Positions 33,841-43,518 of a DNA stretch of 64,000 nt are shown here, in pieces. Below the pieces are notes generated by a model, which was not told the origin of the DNA, did not search any database, and was given only the letters and a program-made list of their open reading frames with translations. A program made the translations under genes and the position numbers. The stretch covers positions 3,286,001 through 3,350,000 of the forward strand of contig NZ_CP116968.1 of the NCBI RefSeq assembly GCF_032051675.1, read 5' to 3'. Position 1 is the stretch's first letter. Each line of letters starts with the position of its first letter. The DNA comes from Candidatus Nitrospira neomarina (GTDB lineage Bacteria > Nitrospirota > Nitrospiria > Nitrospirales > UBA8639).

Positions 33841-34878
33841 TTATCGTAATTCGTCATGAATGCCTTCGGCGGTTCTCTTGTGATCACCCGGCACGTTTTC
33901 GAGTTCCCGCACCGCTTTGATCCGGCCGTAGAGACGTCTCAAGTGGTCCTCATATTCGCCTCGTTTGAGACCGGCGTGATCTCGTTCAAAGATACGACCC
34001 AACAGGTAGCCGATGATTTCCATGACGTCCAGAAGCTTGCCGTCCGGCTCCATCGCTTCTTCCGAGAAAAACTCCATCACCGCCACCACCTTCGGTCCAA
34101 TAAGGATGGGAAAGGCAAAGCCGGCCTTCACGCCTATTTCCTTGGCAAGGCGGGCGCGAGGGAAATTGGGATCCTTCGTCACATTTTTAATCCAGGCCAC
34201 CTTTCCACTGGCCAACACCCGACCTGGCAACCCCTCTCCAGGAGCAAATTTCGTCGATTCTGTCACCTGTCGAAACGTCTCGAATTTCCCCCAGTCCCTC
34301 AAAATCCAAATTTTGCTTGGATTCAAGAGGTCCTTATCGCCGTCACGAATATAGAGATGGGCGACCGGCCACCCCGTATAGTCGCAAATGATTTTCATGG
34401 CACCTTTTAACGCATCCTCTACCGGGTCATTGGTATTAGATAAGACAGCAATCTCCTGATTTAGTTTCAGAAAAGTCGTTTCCTGTTTCAAGAGTTCATA
34501 GGCCATTTTCATTTTTTCCGATTCCTTCTGCTCTTCGATAAACCGCAATTGTCCTAGGGCAAACACGGCGACCAGCCAGATGACAAAGATAGAAAGCGCC
34601 CGATTGATTTCTGCCATCCATAAGGCCACGCCAGGATCGGAAATAAACGCCCCTTCTAAGGTCAGAATCGTCCCGGCAATTGCCCCGCCATAGATCAACC
34701 GCTTGTCTTTTGCCATGAAGCCCATTAAGACCAAAATGGTATAGGCTTCGCCAATTGACACACCCAACGGCAACATGCCATCCACGAGAGAAATGACCAG
34801 GGAAACGCCGACCATCAGAACGACATAGCCAACGATCGGGATCGAAAAACCGGAAAAGTTTAAAAAGGGTTTTAGCAT
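33841..34878 (-). CDS. Membrane protein with cytoplasmic GAF domain, 345 aa
   Basis: Four or so hydrophobic segments occupy the first ~115 residues (IPIVGYVVLMVGVSLVISLV, AYTILVLMGFMA, LIYGGAIAGTILTLEG, ALSIFVIWLVAVFALGQL). A charged helix (EEQKESEKMKMAYELLKQE) leads into a GAF domain at ~145-310 (IICDYTGWPVAHLYIRDG, GEGLPGRVLASGKVAWIKNV, GFAFPILIGPKVVAVMEFF). No kinase, GGDEF or effector domain follows, only ~35 residues of charged C-terminal tail. It probably senses a small molecule and signals through partner contact. It starts 93 bp after the SulP transporter gene on the same strand, so it is likely co-transcribed with it. Confidence 0.82.
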   Translation of the reverse strand: MLKPFLNFSGFSIPIVGYVVLMVGVSLVISLVDGMLPLGVSIGEAYTILVLMGFMAKDKRLIYGGAIAGTILTLEGAFISDPGVALWMAEINRALSIFVIWLVAVFALGQLRFIEEQKESEKMKMAYELLKQETTFLKLNQEIAVLSNTNDPVEDALKGAMKIICDYTGWPVAHLYIRDGDKDLLNPSKIWILRDWGKFETFRQVTESTKFAPGEGLPGRVLASGKVAWIKNVTKDPNFPRARLAKEIGVKAGFAFPILIGPKVVAVMEFFSEEAMEPDGKLLDVMEIIGYLLGRIFERDHAGLKRGEYEDHLRRLYGRIKAVRELENVPGDHKRTAEGIHDELR

Positions 34879-37292: not shown

Positions 37293-38174
37293 CTATGGTC
37301 TATGCGCGGCCACATCGACTTCTTTCAACGTCCAGCCGAGCTTGGCAACTGTTTCTCTATTCAGCTTCCCCTCCCGGGTCAGGATGCCATTGGAGATCAA
37401 TAGCATTCTCATAGTCTTAATCGTGAGATCATCTTTCTTCGCATAGGCGTCTTCAAAATCCGCTGCTCGTTTCTGGTCTGCAGTGAGGTGGGTGTTCGGC
37501 TGGATTGGCGCATGCCCTTCAAAACCGCCCCGCTTAGCCGTGATGAAATAATCGAACTCATAGGTGCTTGTTACTCCTTTGAGCTCCCGCACTTCAATGT
37601 GTTCTTTTGTTACGCCAATCGCAGCAAGGCCAAACGTGTCCGTGGAGCGTGGCGTGAACTGCACCGTGATATCTTCATCCTTACCGGCCACAACTCGAAA
37701 GTGTTCAGGCGTCTCGATGGTAGCGCGTCCATCGACCAGCCTAGCCTTACCTCTCAGAAAGACGGCATGCTCGGGACCCTCGAAAAAGGCATAGACCACT
37801 TCTTTGGCGGGATCGGATGGATGTGGCTGGACAAATGCACCTGACCCTTTGGTGAGACTACCTGTGATATTGACATCCCCGTTAAAAGTAAGGTCATTGG
37901 ATGAGAAATCGCCGTCAATGAGGGGACTCGTGGTTTGAGAATTATTAATATAGAGCTTGTTGGAACCGGTCGCGGTATACCCTGCCCGATAGCCATTAAA
38001 GACATTGGAACTCCCCCACTGATTGGTGTAGCCGACATAATCTCCCATGAAGGTATTGTAAATTCCGGTGGACATGTTGTAGCCAGTCCCGTATCCAAGG
38101 AAAATGTTGAGGGCACCAGCGGTGTTATTGAAACCGGCATATCTTCCGACAAAGGTATTATAGGGACCTGACAC
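37293..38174 (-). pseudogene. Surface protein with YadA-like head repeats, 5' end apparently missing
   Basis: About 290 residues are open. The first ~70 are head repeats of the YadA/hemagglutinin kind, spaced ~24 residues: NTFVGRYAGFNNTAG, NIFLGYGTGYNMSTG, NTFMGDYVGYTNQWG, NVFNGYRAGYTATG, then NKLYINNSQ. A neck-like NDLTFNGDVNITGSL follows and then a conserved C-terminal domain (PHPSDPAKEVVYAFFEGPE, VQFTPRSTD, STYEFDYFITAKRGGFE). No ATG lies upstream in frame. The frame meets TAA just before VENAQQSYHR, there is no signal peptide, and only GTG 38174 could start it. I read it as the 3' remnant of a longer adhesin or fibre gene, though a short expressed protein is possible. Confidence 0.65.
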
Positions 38175-38369: not shown

Positions 38370-40172
38370 CTATTTCAGGCCCCTTAGAAGCTCCGTCTCA
38401 ACCAATTTCCCCAGGTCTCTCAAGAGGTTGATCTTCCCGCCATCAAGATGGCGGGGGCGTGAGTCAATGAGGCAAAGGGTGCCAATCAGATATCCATCGG
38501 GTAGCCTGAGCGGACAACCGGCATAAAACCGAATACGCGGCTCGCCCGTCACCAAGGGGTTGTCGGCAAAACGCGTGTCGAGGAACGTATCGGGAACAAT
38601 CAGCACTCGATTTTCTAAGATGGCATGAGCGCAGAACGCCATGTCGCGCGGGGTTTCTTTTACGTTGAGACCAATACACGCTTTGAACCACTGTCGGTCG
38701 CGATCAATGAGACTGACAAGGGCGATTGGAACATTGAACGCTTCAGAAGCTATTCGGGCTATTCGATCAAACCGTTCTTCCGGCTCGGTATCCAGAATCT
38801 TCAGTTTTACCAGAGCGGCTAGTCGGGCTTCTTCATTTTCCGGCCACTGCGCTCTAATCCATCGACAGGTGGTTCGCAAAATCCATGCACGTATCCGTGT
38901 ACGGGCATACGGCTGTGAAAAAGGTCTTAGCATCCAGTCTGTAGCAAAATCAGCTAAGGCCGAGGCTGTATTTTCCCTGTCAGCCACCACCACAATAGGT
39001 GCTTGGGGAGTCACGCGCGTGCCTAATGCTTTCACCCTTCGACATACAGCAAGTGCATCACCTCCTACCGATTGCTCGTCCACGATGACCAGCGATGGTG
39101 GCTCTGCTTCTATGGTTTGTATTGCGTTTTGAGTACGTGTCGCTGAAATCAAACGCACATCTTCAGCTTCTGCAGCACCCTTAATCACCTCAGCGGTTTG
39201 AGCGTCCGTCGCGCCTAAAAAGATCAAACTTTCTGAAAGAACTGGCGCAATTGGGGTAACAGCTGAAAATTCTTTGGTGCCCTTCGTTGTCTCTCTGTCG
39301 GCTCTGGATTTTAGTTTAATGGTCTCCCCTTCTGCAGCCGCGAACACATGAAGAGGCTTGTTCGTCAATTTCAATCTAGCCCTCATCGCATGGACAATCT
39401 GATCCAGACTTTCGTCATCGCGCGTCGGATCATGATGGGTCAACGCTAATTGCTTGACCTCGGCGGCATGACATAATTCAATCGCATACTCAGCCGGACT
39501 GTGGCCCCAACCGATCTTCTCGGCATATTCCAAAGCGATATATTGGGCGTCGTGAATGACCAGATCAGCTCCCCGCATGAACTCTGCATGTTGACGGTCC
39601 TGCTCGCCGACCTCGATCCGGTCAGTCGATGACTTGCGGGAAAAGGGTTCGTGATCGCATGCGTACACAATCGAAACACCGTCAGCGTCAAGTCGGTAGC
39701 CTAGCGTCAAAGCCGGGTGATTGAGATAGCGAGACCGAACGGTGATGTCACCGACCTCGAACATGCCCTCCACCAGGTCGTGATAGGTAATGCTTGCGCC
39801 AAGCGCTTCAATGGTCATCGGAAAGTAGGTGTACTGCATCTGTCCAGCAAGCGTATCTCGAATCGACTCCCTCAGGCTGTGGGGTGCATATATGTCCCAC
39901 TCATTACCGGATGCGAACAACGGCGCGAAGAAAGGAATGCCCTGAATGTGGTCCCAATGCGTGTGGCTGATTAGCAGATGACCGCGTAGGGGTTGTATGA
40001 CCTCGGCCACCAGCGATTGGCCAAGACCATGGGCCCCTGTTCCGCAATCGATGACGACCAGCGTTCCTGAGTCGGAGCGCACCTCAACACAGGACGTATT
40101 GCCGCCGTAACGAACGGTGCTTGGACCCGCTTTGGCTATGGAGCCTCGTGTGCCCCAGAATCGAACGCGCAT
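38370..40172 (-). CDS. Fusion of metallo-beta-lactamase hydrolase, receiver-like and GAF domains, 600 aa
   Basis: Domain 1 (~1-285) is a metallo-beta-lactamase fold of the PhnP/phosphodiesterase-like kind: FWGTRGS at the start, HTHWDH at 70-75, YACDHEP, ADLVIHDAQY, GWGHS and LALTHHDP supply metal ligands. Domain 2 (~310-430) resembles a receiver (SLVIVDEQSVGGDAL, PIVVVADRE) but lacks the N-terminal acidic pair, and the usual KP is RP (WMLRPFSQ), so it is probably non-phosphorylatable. Domain 3 (~455-600) is a GAF of the type that often precedes GGDEF domains (LDTEPEERFDRI, ALVSLIDRDRQWFK, DMAFCAHAI, CLIDSRPR). Cytosolic, no signal peptide. It may couple a hydrolase to a sensor input; substrate unknown. 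Confidence 0.9.
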   Translation of the reverse strand: MRVRFWGTRGSIAKAGPSTVRYGGNTSCVEVRSDSGTLVVIDCGTGAHGLGQSLVAEVIQPLRGHLLISHTHWDHIQGIPFFAPLFASGNEWDIYAPHSLRESIRDTLAGQMQYTYFPMTIEALGASITYHDLVEGMFEVGDITVRSRYLNHPALTLGYRLDADGVSIVYACDHEPFSRKSSTDRIEVGEQDRQHAEFMRGADLVIHDAQYIALEYAEKIGWGHSPAEYAIELCHAAEVKQLALTHHDPTRDDESLDQIVHAMRARLKLTNKPLHVFAAAEGETIKLKSRADRETTKGTKEFSAVTPIAPVLSESLIFLGATDAQTAEVIKGAAEAEDVRLISATRTQNAIQTIEAEPPSLVIVDEQSVGGDALAVCRRVKALGTRVTPQAPIVVVADRENTASALADFATDWMLRPFSQPYARTRIRAWILRTTCRWIRAQWPENEEARLAALVKLKILDTEPEERFDRIARIASEAFNVPIALVSLIDRDRQWFKACIGLNVKETPRDMAFCAHAILENRVLIVPDTFLDTRFADNPLVTGEPRIRFYAGCPLRLPDGYLIGTLCLIDSRPRHLDGGKINLLRDLGKLVETELLRGLK

Positions 40173-40712: not shown

Positions 40713-41084
40713 ATGAAACGCATTCTTCTTGTCGATGATCATGAGATGGCCAGGAAAGCCATGAAGCATTTTCTTGAGCATCATGGGTATGCCTGCGAGG
40801 AAGCCGAACACGGAGCCGTCGCCCTAGCTAAATTGGAGCAAGGACCGAGCATAGATCTCATCGTTTCCGATAACCACATGCCGGTCATGACCGGCATGGA
40901 TTTACTCCTCCAGGTAAAGGGCAACCCAAATTTTGGCCTTATCCCTTTCATTCTGTATTCGGGAAATGTCACCGACGAGATGTACCAACAGGCCAATGAG
41001 GCGGGAGCTCTGGCTGTACTCAACAAACCGTACAATTTTTCAGATTTTGTCGGGATGGTTAATAATGCTCTTCAAACGCCGTAA
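40713..41084 (+). CDS. Single-domain response regulator (CheY-like), 123 aa
   Basis: A stand-alone receiver domain: LLVDDHE (acidic pair near residues 8-9), phosphoacceptor Asp53 in VSDNHMP, serine of YSGN (~84), and Lys105 in NKPY. No output domain follows. Such proteins are phosphorylated by a histidine kinase and act by protein contact. It is divergent from the MBL/receiver-like/GAF fusion gene. It resembles the regulator at 62170 (SDxHMPV, SGN-T, KP-F), suggesting paralogs. No kinase gene is in the window. Confidence 0.92.
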   Translation: MKRILLVDDHEMARKAMKHFLEHHGYACEEAEHGAVALAKLEQGPSIDLIVSDNHMPVMTGMDLLLQVKGNPNFGLIPFILYSGNVTDEMYQQANEAGALAVLNKPYNFSDFVGMVNNALQTP

Positions 41085-41343: not shown

Positions 41344-43518
41344 TCAAGGCGCTACTACTTGAAAAAGATTACTGTAGTCGTCTGTCCAGAGGATTTCTTC
41401 GAGTGATCGCCAGGGTGCAATCCGGAAGTTGACGAAGGGGTCTTTTACAAACGCCTGGTTGTTCGTGACCAGGATCCAATCACTATAGCTATTCCCTTTC
41501 TCAGGGTCGGCCACGTCCTTGATCCAGAGCGCCTGTTTGCCGAACTCTCGGGCCAGGGCCCGGACCACGGGGCTGAAGTCAAAGTGGCGATTCGAGACAT
41601 GGAGGGCGAGAATCCCGTCGGGTTGTAAATGCTCCCAGTAGAGAGCAAAGGCCTCCCTCGTCAGCAGGTGAACCGGAATGCCGTCCCCACTGAAAGCATC
41701 CACCGCTAAAATATCGAACTGTTGTCGATGTCCGTTCTCCAATTCCCGCTCGAGAGAAATTCGTCCATCTCCAAGGACAATCTGCTGGGATCCCTTGGCA
41801 TCTTTGAGAAACGTGAAGTACTCCCTGGCCATTTGATCCACCTCAGGATTGATTTCATAAAATCGATACATATCGCCGGGCCGGGCATACACTGTGGTGG
41901 TTCCAACCCCCAACCCGATGTTCCCAACCCGCAAGCCCCCTTGCCCTTTTCTGTCCTTGAGCGTGTTCAACTTCAGTTGTTGAGGATGACGGCTGATGGC
42001 TAAGCTGATTCCACTGAAAGGCCCGTAATAGGCAGTGGGATACGAGTGCCGGGAGGGAGTCAGGAATTGCCGGCCATGGTTGATGCGACCGTGATAGAGG
42101 AAACGGCTGGCGGACTTCGTCCCTTGGTCCGTCTCCTTTATTCGCAGGACACCATAAAAATTACGCGATGTCAGGATAGTACTCGCTTGCTGCTCGTGAA
42201 TATGCAGTGCCAGAAAACCTATAAGAGTGGCAATTCCCCCAACAAACACAACTCTTTCTGACCAGAAGATGAGTGGCGATCTGAGTGGATCCTTCGTCCG
42301 AAACAGGCAGATTCCCAGAAGCATCATCGTGGCCACCAGCCCAAAATGAAATTCCCAGTATCCTTGAAAAAGAACGGGTGCGACCAGGTTGACAAACACC
42401 CCACCCAACGCTCCCCCTAACGCGACCATGAGATAGAAGGATGTGAGAAATCTGGCGGGAGGCTTCAAGCGAACCAGTTCGCCATGGCACACCATGCAAC
42501 AGGCAAAAAGGACCGCCGAATAGATGAAAATCTGGAGGTAGATATTGATCTCCGTTTCCGCATATTCCTGATGCAGCAGGTAGACAACCCCGGAGAGCAA
42601 TACCAGCAACACGGGTACCCAGATTCGTCGGTGGTACCATCGCGGGTGATCGAAACAAAGAATGAAAGAAATAAGGTAGAGACCCAGCGGGAGAACCCAA
42701 AGAAAAGGGATAACCGCGATATCCCGGCAAATCTGATTCGTGCTTGCGAGGAGGACCACTGATCCGCAAGCTGCAAGAGCGAGGGTCAGAAGGCTCTCAG
42801 GCAAACCCGGCTTCTTGGCCGGTCCATACTCAAGATTTTCTGAGAATCCGCTCTTTGTGGCTAATCGAAACAGCGGCCTGGCACCCCACGCACATATGAC
42901 CGCATATAGGCCGTACCCGCCCGACCAGAAGAGGGTCTGCGTATGCAAACCCAGTTGCGGCTCGATAAAAAAAGGATAGGAGACCAATCCCAAAAGTGAG
43001 CCAAGATTCGATAAGGCGAAAAGTCGATACGGAGAGACAGTGGGATGGACTCGATTAAACCAATGTTGCAGGAGAGGGCCCGAAGCCGAGATGAGGAGAA
43101 ACGGCACCCCAATGGTCACCAGGAGAAGAAAAAGAATCGCCAGCATCGGATTTTGTGTGCCATCCGGCTTCCATCCCTCCCCTGGGGTGATAGGGAGAAA
43201 GACCAGAGAACACACCACCAGACTCAGGTGAACCAGCGCCTGGTGCCGGGGGGAGAGGTGGCTTGCGAGAAGATGGGCATAGGCATACCCGACCAAAAGA
43301 CAGACCTGAAAGAAGAGCATGCACGTCGTCCAGACCGCCGGGGTGCCTCCAAACCAGGGAAGAATATACCGGGCGATAATGGGCTCTACTTGAAACAGCA
43401 GAAAGGCACTGAGAAAGATCGCAACGGCATACGGGAGGACAAACACCCGTGGCATTTTTGATGGGAAAGAAGTCATGACCTTCATGTTGACAGACGGTGG
43501 CGATGGGGCATTGTTCAT
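41344..43518 (-). CDS. Fused membrane transporter-like / spermidine synthase-like protein, 724 aa
   Basis: The first ~470 residues are membrane-embedded with about a dozen hydrophobic segments (VLPYAVAIFLSAFLLFQVEPI, LPWFGGTPAVWTTCMLFFQ, YRLFALSNLGSLLGL). The C-terminal ~220 residues form a Rossmann methyltransferase-like domain of the polyamine synthase fold: VGNIGLGVGTT (nucleotide loop), YEINPEV, IVLGDGRISLERE, DILAVDAFSGDGIP and LALHVSNRHFD. This is the known MFS/spermidine-synthase fusion family. Its reaction is not settled, and the key polyamine-binding residues cannot be judged by eye. It ends 259 bp from the response regulator gene, convergent with it. Confidence 0.87.
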   Translation of the reverse strand: MNNAPSPPSVNMKVMTSFPSKMPRVFVLPYAVAIFLSAFLLFQVEPIIARYILPWFGGTPAVWTTCMLFFQVCLLVGYAYAHLLASHLSPRHQALVHLSLVVCSLVFLPITPGEGWKPDGTQNPMLAILFLLLVTIGVPFLLISASGPLLQHWFNRVHPTVSPYRLFALSNLGSLLGLVSYPFFIEPQLGLHTQTLFWSGGYGLYAVICAWGARPLFRLATKSGFSENLEYGPAKKPGLPESLLTLALAACGSVVLLASTNQICRDIAVIPFLWVLPLGLYLISFILCFDHPRWYHRRIWVPVLLVLLSGVVYLLHQEYAETEINIYLQIFIYSAVLFACCMVCHGELVRLKPPARFLTSFYLMVALGGALGGVFVNLVAPVLFQGYWEFHFGLVATMMLLGICLFRTKDPLRSPLIFWSERVVFVGGIATLIGFLALHIHEQQASTILTSRNFYGVLRIKETDQGTKSASRFLYHGRINHGRQFLTPSRHSYPTAYYGPFSGISLAISRHPQQLKLNTLKDRKGQGGLRVGNIGLGVGTTTVYARPGDMYRFYEINPEVDQMAREYFTFLKDAKGSQQIVLGDGRISLERELENGHRQQFDILAVDAFSGDGIPVHLLTREAFALYWEHLQPDGILALHVSNRHFDFSPVVRALAREFGKQALWIKDVADPEKGNSYSDWILVTNNQAFVKDPFVNFRIAPWRSLEEILWTDDYSNLFQVVAP

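Follow-up and report, generated by a model that had tools for sequence, protein, structure and literature searches.

The window analyzed here, a stretch of 64,000 nucleotides from the genome of Candidatus Nitrospira neomarina (4.80 Mb, single contig), carries on its minus strand a gene at positions 38370–40172, which starts with ATG and encodes 600 amino acids followed by a stop codon. In the first-pass annotation, the product was described as a metallo-β-lactamase (MBL) hydrolase fused to a degenerate receiver (REC) and a GAF domain, and this layout was borne out by Pfam, AlphaFold2 models, and structure comparison. The MBL-fold hydrolase domain (aa 1–289; 39306–40172, as all features of this gene on the minus strand) matches Lactamase_B_2 (PF12706) over aa 38–246 with 61.3 bits against a cut-off of 27, and its fold matches RNase Z (Z 22.4) and YhfI (Z 21.4) in VIA-align. 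The HTHWDH motif and the other MBL ligands noticed earlier were located as seven residues, H70, H72, D74, H75, H152, D173, and H246. The motif S-H-T-H-W-D-H (aa 69–75; 39948–39968) is read directly, and it is followed by His152 (39717–39719), Asp173 (39654–39656), presumably the bridging Asp of MBL hydrolases, and His246 (39435–39437). All seven are intact in each of the 28 MBL-REC-GAF members described below, and [S/T]HTHWDH is found in 27 of them. A variable linker (aa 290–314; 39231–39305; mean pairwise identity of 16.5%, pLDDT below 50 at aa 291–299) leads to the degenerate receiver (aa 315–434; 38871–39230), which was delimited by AlphaFold2 models and structure comparison and whose Response_reg match (14.3 bits, aa 325–418) lies below the Pfam cut-off of 30.2. 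The C-terminal module (aa 439–597; 38382–38858) is a GAF domain with an N-terminal helix of the type found in Dcsbis (PA2771). It matches PF01590 over aa 463–594 with 66.8 bits (cut-off of 22.4), and together with its leading helix it matches Dcsbis (4zmu), the nearest GAF of solved structure, both in sequence (E 1.4e-40) and in structure (Z 27.9, rmsd 1.1, 162 residues). Dcsbis carries a C-terminal GGDEF output, whereas in the window protein the GAF is terminal and the enzyme N-terminal; as claimed earlier, no output or other further domain lies C-terminal of the GAF, where the protein ends. The full-length AlphaFold2 model (pLDDT 77) gives the order of MBL fold, strands and helices in the receiver pattern (aa 316–434), and GAF, with pLDDT below 50 at aa 10–18, 73–75, 109–119, 180–185, and 291–299; because ligands 74 and 75 lie in the stretch at 73–75, the predicted model does not prove the metal site. 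The window protein has a relative of near-equal length and 72% identity in another phylum, and comparisons of the gene with L010 and L039 gave dN/dS of 0.08–0.21 across MBL, REC, and GAF (NG86, dS partly saturated), so that the fused gene, of which further full-length relatives exist, is not a product of chance.

Several neighboring genes were also inspected. The divergent CheY-like gene at 40713–41084 (plus strand), pointed out in the first-pass annotation, is real (Response_reg 78 bits in Pfam), but it seems incidental: no tblastn match (E 1e-3) was found at 31 loci with 27 other MBL-REC-GAF genes, several of which lie on short contigs. It was for this reason dropped as a partner and is probably outside the system. 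Downstream, the gene at 37293–38174 (minus strand) has a GTG start, contains YNTFVGRYAG-like repeats, gives no Pfam match, and looks like a 5'-truncated surface or tail-fiber protein. The gene at 33841–34878 (minus strand) encodes a GAF protein of 345 aa, which is probably membrane-anchored, and adjoins a SulP transporter with a STAS domain. The gene at 41344–43518 (minus strand) encodes a probable membrane protein of 724 aa with no Pfam match above cut-off, the C-terminus of which has, in our view, a methyltransferase- or spermidine-synthase-like look.

Distribution of the MBL-REC-GAF Family

The rarity that the first-pass annotation had implied for this architecture was contradicted by a search for it, since proteins of approximately 600 aa with the same domains are present in six phyla. 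MBL-REC-GAF is a sparse cross-phylum family, not a one-off: 29 genomes carry the architecture, in 28 distinct genes (the G517 gene is identical to the G516 gene), and it is sparse in each phylum. A scan across 84,980 species genomes turned up at least 561 related places, and among the 80 best of these, 14 are MBL-REC-GAF genes, full-length or cut at a contig end (as in L041), from Pseudomonadota, Verrucomicrobiota, Thermodesulfobacteriota, Actinomycetota, and Myxococcota. Because most of these carriers are MAGs, with one MAG each for Thermodesulfobacteriota and Myxococcota, an individual phylum assignment could be mistaken; no MAG label is attached to Sphingomonas sp. YR710 or to two Methylobacterium species. 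The architecture was found in 1 of 395 sampled Nitrospirota genomes, the window's own (three candidates scored per genome), in 9 of 347 Sphingomonadaceae genomes, and in 7 of 111 genomes of the genus of the Methylobacterium match G429. Among 19 genomes of the same genus as the window, G017 was the only one with a full-length ortholog (83% identity). Across the 28 members, mean pairwise identity is 61% for the MBL domain, 26% for the receiver (aa 315–418), and 54% for the GAF.

In the MBL tree, which is of a quick type without bootstraps, leaves out half of the unfused MBL rows, and gives L120 a very long branch, the window row joins G017 and next a MAG of Ectothiorhodospiraceae. Together with Verrucomicrobiota and Desulfosarcina rows, these form a six-row group with 89% support, and this cross-phylum grouping of sequences suggests horizontal transfer. 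None of 2794 matching plasmid records covers 80% of the query. A phage origin was rejected, as the matches comprised one phage record with the GAF only and seven viral contigs with MBL relatives at 24–37% identity; the phage record, MT838032.1 (5.8 kb, labeled Bacteriophage sp.), encodes a Dcsbis-type GAF at 51% identity and is perhaps a bacterial contig. None of the papers listed in searches of the open-access literature describes, as far as titles or abstract openings tell, an MBL-REC-GAF protein, which does not prove that no description exists; the part of PMC554113 consulted describes another MBL fusion.

Receiver Decay and Control of the Enzyme

The middle domain had been called a receiver on its sequence features, and structure prediction agrees with this. 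Folded separately in a 20-row alignment, which included canonical receivers that help the prediction, it forms a (β–α)5 receiver with a pLDDT of 85, and the 50 matches listed are all, judged by their titles, receivers or response-regulator chains (Z 15.7–17.1); the full-length model, obtained from the GAF-bearing family alone, shows the same receiver order. The sequence reading of its degeneracy also proved correct. The end of β1 reads Gly-Ala-Thr-Asp-Ala, without the N-terminal acidic pair, and Arg416-Pro417 (38922–38927) replaces Lys-Pro, at which position 2 of the 28 members have Lys, 4 have Arg, and all 28 keep the Pro. To this can be added that Asp365 (39078–39080) is kept at the phospho-acceptor position, where 9 of the 28 members have Asp, and that Ala397 occupies the Thr/Ser position.

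Two sister architectures place this loss in context. The full phosphorylation set, which consists of the acidic pair, acceptor Asp, Thr, and Lys, is found in 9 of 12 complete MBL-REC proteins, in none of the 28 MBL-REC-GAF members, and in none of 15 rows in which the same MBL-REC core is followed by a cNMP-binding domain and GGDEF. Left out of the 12 were L015 and L065 (contig ends), L013, L066, L087, and L116 (stops or frameshifts), and L133 (not recovered), and the alignment gives L132 an Asn in place of the acceptor Asp. The 15 rows (14 distinct, with L063 and L130 as copies) come from Nitrospirota and Rokubacteria, and the assignment of L128, L130, and L134 used length, alignment, and motif. 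These MBL-REC-cNMP-GGDEF proteins share with the window protein the MBL-REC core and the loss of the acidic pair (0 of 15), but their cNMP-binding and GGDEF tail replaces the GAF and their receivers are less decayed, as most keep Asp, Thr, and Lys and several pass the Pfam cut-off. A binding-cassette pattern is seen in 12 of the 15 rows, and 11 of these 12 read R-[S/T]-A. The exception, with R-P-T, is the protein at L020:526-2790 (minus strand), in which alone the metal site is broken as well: its motif reads HTHWDD, and Asn replaces Asp173. On these counts, receivers tend to be decayed where a new C-terminal domain is present. Among REC-only proteins, the four rows closest to the GAF group include two, L054 and L068, whose receivers have decayed with no added domain. 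All REC-fused rows fall into one clade of the MBL tree (SH-aLRT 99), which also contains one unfused Chloroflexota row. The GAF-tailed and cNMP-GGDEF-tailed rows sit in different parts of this clade, and L050 branches apart from the remaining 27 GAF rows, with no starred support. We infer that the decay came after the fusion. The ancestor may have been an MBL-receiver protein under phosphorylation control, and in the simplest reading new C-terminal domains would have been gained at least twice, with phosphorylation lost in those lines. In the line of the window protein, a Dcsbis-type GAF would have been added at the C-terminus, after which the receiver could have shed its phosphorylation chemistry and become a structural relay. 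In three pairwise comparisons (NG86; dS near or over 1 in most), dN/dS is 0.19–0.29 for the receiver versus 0.07–0.09 for the GAF, and this purifying selection suggests that the decayed receiver is likely to be a working connector.

It is also conceivable, but improbable, that the receiver still works in the classical way, with a kinase or acetyl phosphate as the phosphate donor for Asp365 and a part for the CheY-like neighbor. Such a mechanism would be in keeping with the acceptor position of Asp365, with the receiver fold, which is predicted to be intact, and with the distance of only 0.5 kb to the CheY-like gene, but the receiver of the window protein has lost the acidic pair as well as Thr/Ser and Lys, the acceptor Asp is restricted to the above minority of family members, and the CheY-like gene goes unmatched at their loci. 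The proposal of the first-pass annotation, a hydrolase gated by a pseudo-receiver and a GAF, stands in its domain content and remains the best reading, although not in the rarity it implied. In this gated hydrolase, the GAF probably dimerizes, and binding of a small ligand to it would change MBL activity via the receiver relay. A less favored but still sizable alternative is that the GAF is a dimerization module without a ligand and that activity is constitutive and set by expression. According to the portions of PMC4937426 consulted, the Dcsbis GAF dimerizes via α2 and α5 and shows no meaningful affinity for cAMP or cGMP, which fits a purely structural role; on the other hand, the same portions describe a large GAF pocket and much lower activity of Dcsbis without its GAF, and the low dN/dS given above marks the GAF of the present family as strongly conserved.

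Substrate of the MBL Domain and Cyclase Neighborhoods

Regarding the substrate, to which the first-pass annotation had not committed itself, the window protein is proposed to be a cyclic mononucleotide (cNMP) phosphodiesterase like YhfI and Rv1339, in which a phosphorylation-dead receiver links the enzyme to a GAF dimer or sensor; we put the probability of this reading at roughly 0.5. The protein would be soluble and would hydrolyze a cyclic mononucleotide, most likely cAMP, in its MBL catalytic domain, with catalysis like that of the atypical class-II enzymes YhfI of B. subtilis, Rv1339 of M. tuberculosis, and CpdA of C. glutamicum. Domains, metal ligands, the loss of receiver chemistry, the tree, and the sphingomonad cyclase neighborhood described below are read from the sequence, and from them we infer catalysis, substrate, dimerization, the GAF ligand, and the direction of control. 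YhfI, Rv1339, and CpdA are single-domain enzymes of approximately 250–275 aa; they share with the window protein the PF12706 MBL fold, the [T/S]HXHXDH motif, and the metal-bridging Asp (Asp173 is by fold position the counterpart of the metal-bridging D180 of Rv1339), while the window protein adds a receiver and a GAF. In the portions of the literature consulted, [T/S]HXHXDH is given as the signature of atypical class-II phosphodiesterases (PMC9293780), and YhfI prefers cAMP and cGMP over cCMP and cUMP (PMC9117128). The window protein fits this signature (SHTHWDH), with Trp instead of a small residue at the second X, but the signature is not discriminating because RNase Z sequences fit such a motif.

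The sequence scores themselves favor RNase Z. The best profile match is RNase Z (E 4e-18, versus 1e-5 for YhfI), and the RNase Z model TIGR02651 gives about 71–75 bits with the window protein and matches all 28 members, whereas the cNMP phosphodiesterase model NF041851 gives 36.6 bits (E 3e-9) and matches 27 of the 28, more weakly; neither cut-off (293 and 400, respectively) is reached. The substrate assignment therefore leans mainly on gene context. One alternative accordingly weighed, and an unlikely one, is that the MBL domain, regulated by REC and GAF, is an RNase Z-like nuclease or a 2',3'-cyclic phosphodiesterase whose targets are RNA molecules or their ends. In addition to the score far under the cut-off (75 versus 293 bits), the arm region of the MBL domain is short, with 36 residues between the aligned stretches versus 65 in 2cbn, where we take the tRNA-binding arm (exosite) of RNase Z to be located. 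The spacing between H152 and D173 is 20–21 residues in 105 of 105 rows, which also speaks against RNase Z, and the genome has other RNase Z-like matches, the best of which, at 2775117, has 114 bits, is below the cut-off, and runs across one stop. Furthermore, RNase Z would leave the cyclase operon of sphingomonads unexplained. It is about as doubtful that the MBL domain hydrolyzes some other substrate, for which lactones, sulfate esters, and cyclic phosphates from phosphonate metabolism would be examples. The MBL arylsulfatase 8gyg gives a profile match (E 2.7e-11) and PhnP appears among the fold matches, but the former is weaker than that of RNase Z, and both the cyclase operon and the sister architecture with a cNMP-binding domain would remain without explanation. 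Gene neighborhoods and sister architectures point to cyclic mononucleotides as the substrate.

In 6 of the 9 Sphingomonadaceae genomes with MBL-REC-GAF, the next gene on the same strand encodes a class III cyclase of approximately 900 aa, the start of which is overlapped by the preceding MBL-REC-GAF gene in three cases and lies 3–4 bases beyond its end in the other three. The cyclase consists of GAF, PAS, and Guanylate_cyc domains (Pfam, three scanned), and its catalytic domain has Lys and Asp where, as we take it, adenylate cyclases have them, from which cAMP is the predicted product. The two genes have stayed paired even between MBL-REC-GAF proteins with no more than 59–62% identity, although the six operons represent one lineage. 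A full-length ortholog of the cyclase (64–100% identity) is present in 13 of 347 genomes, namely 6 of the 9 with and 7 of the 338 without MBL-REC-GAF (Fisher p 6e-8, with kinship ignored and two candidates scored per genome), so three carriers have no cyclase ortholog and seven genomes have the cyclase alone. In L189, which has no cyclase, the next gene belongs to a cluster (c29) of which a relative comes after the cyclase in L188, so that the cyclase has been gained or lost. A general adjacency to cyclases was considered and dropped: at the best 80 of at least 561 loci, a cyclase lies in the flanks of 3 (L042, L047, and L068) versus 1.3 expected from the cyclase density in 49 genomes (50 of the 80 loci), and for this reason the sphingomonad operon alone is used as evidence. 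No cyclase was found in the flanks of the Methylobacterium loci or adjoining the window gene, whose genome has its cyclases elsewhere.

At the level of whole genomes, class III cyclases are common in genomes of this kind (49 of 49), which counts against the link, although no more than 5 of 14 control genomes have them. Within Nitrospirota, the class III cyclase domain PF00211 is found in all 48 genomes that have this MBL family versus 234 of the 347 that lack it (p 2.7e-8, uncorrected for genome size and ancestry), and by genus in 29 of 29 versus 94 of 140 (p 3.5e-5). When the search was repeated with an MBL-only profile in 285 Nitrospirota genomes, the family was found in 33, all of which have PF00211; 32 of them were already among the 48, and G071 was added. 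As three candidates per genome were scored in Nitrospirota and up to eight in the repeat, absences are uncertain in these searches, as they are in the cyclase search in Sphingomonadaceae, with its two candidates per genome. The host genome has five PF00211 matches, none of them within the window. A cluster at 3.125–3.144 Mb (L198, G000:C1:3124500-3144000) contains two CHASE2 cyclases, tandem AAA-TPR cyclase genes (one scanned with Pfam), a Crp-like gene, and a 270-aa MBL protein with matches to PF12706 and, at 47 bits, to PF02112 (class-II cAMP phosphodiesterase). This cluster is probably a cAMP island in the host and makes cyclic-nucleotide signaling likely in this organism, in which the window protein, encoded approximately 0.18 Mb away, would be an additional and differently controlled phosphodiesterase. 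That the host already has this other candidate enzyme also counts against the proposal. At three loci from one Nitrospirota genus (L199–L201, in G112, G129, and G359), an unfused MBL, an OmpA-like protein, a PAS histidine kinase, and a REC-GAF protein are encoded on the same strand, convergent to a CHASE2 cyclase (Pfam, L199). The domains of the window protein occur there as separate neighbors, with another GAF type; this is suggestive, but concerns one genus and was not counted.

Mammalian PDE2, 5, 6, 10, and 11 are GAF-regulated cNMP phosphodiesterases. Many known bacterial cAMP phosphodiesterases are small enzymes without a sensor domain. The window protein would work like the mammalian enzymes, by cNMP breakdown under GAF control, although these have an unrelated HD catalytic fold and two N-terminal GAF domains. 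More tentatively, the family may be a bacterial counterpart of the mammalian enzymes on the MBL fold, in which the input of an ancestral MBL-receiver phosphodiesterase, once switched by phosphorylation, has been swapped at least twice, through gain of the GAF and of the tail with a cNMP-binding domain and GGDEF, and the receiver, in which phosphorylation chemistry is gone or impaired, serves as a mechanical relay; in sphingomonads, the enzyme and an adenylate cyclase of its own would be paired in one make-and-break operon. If this is true, cAMP breakdown, beyond its synthesis, would be under signal control in bacteria, and the architectures with live and dead receivers would provide a natural series for the conversion of a phosphorylation switch into a relay.
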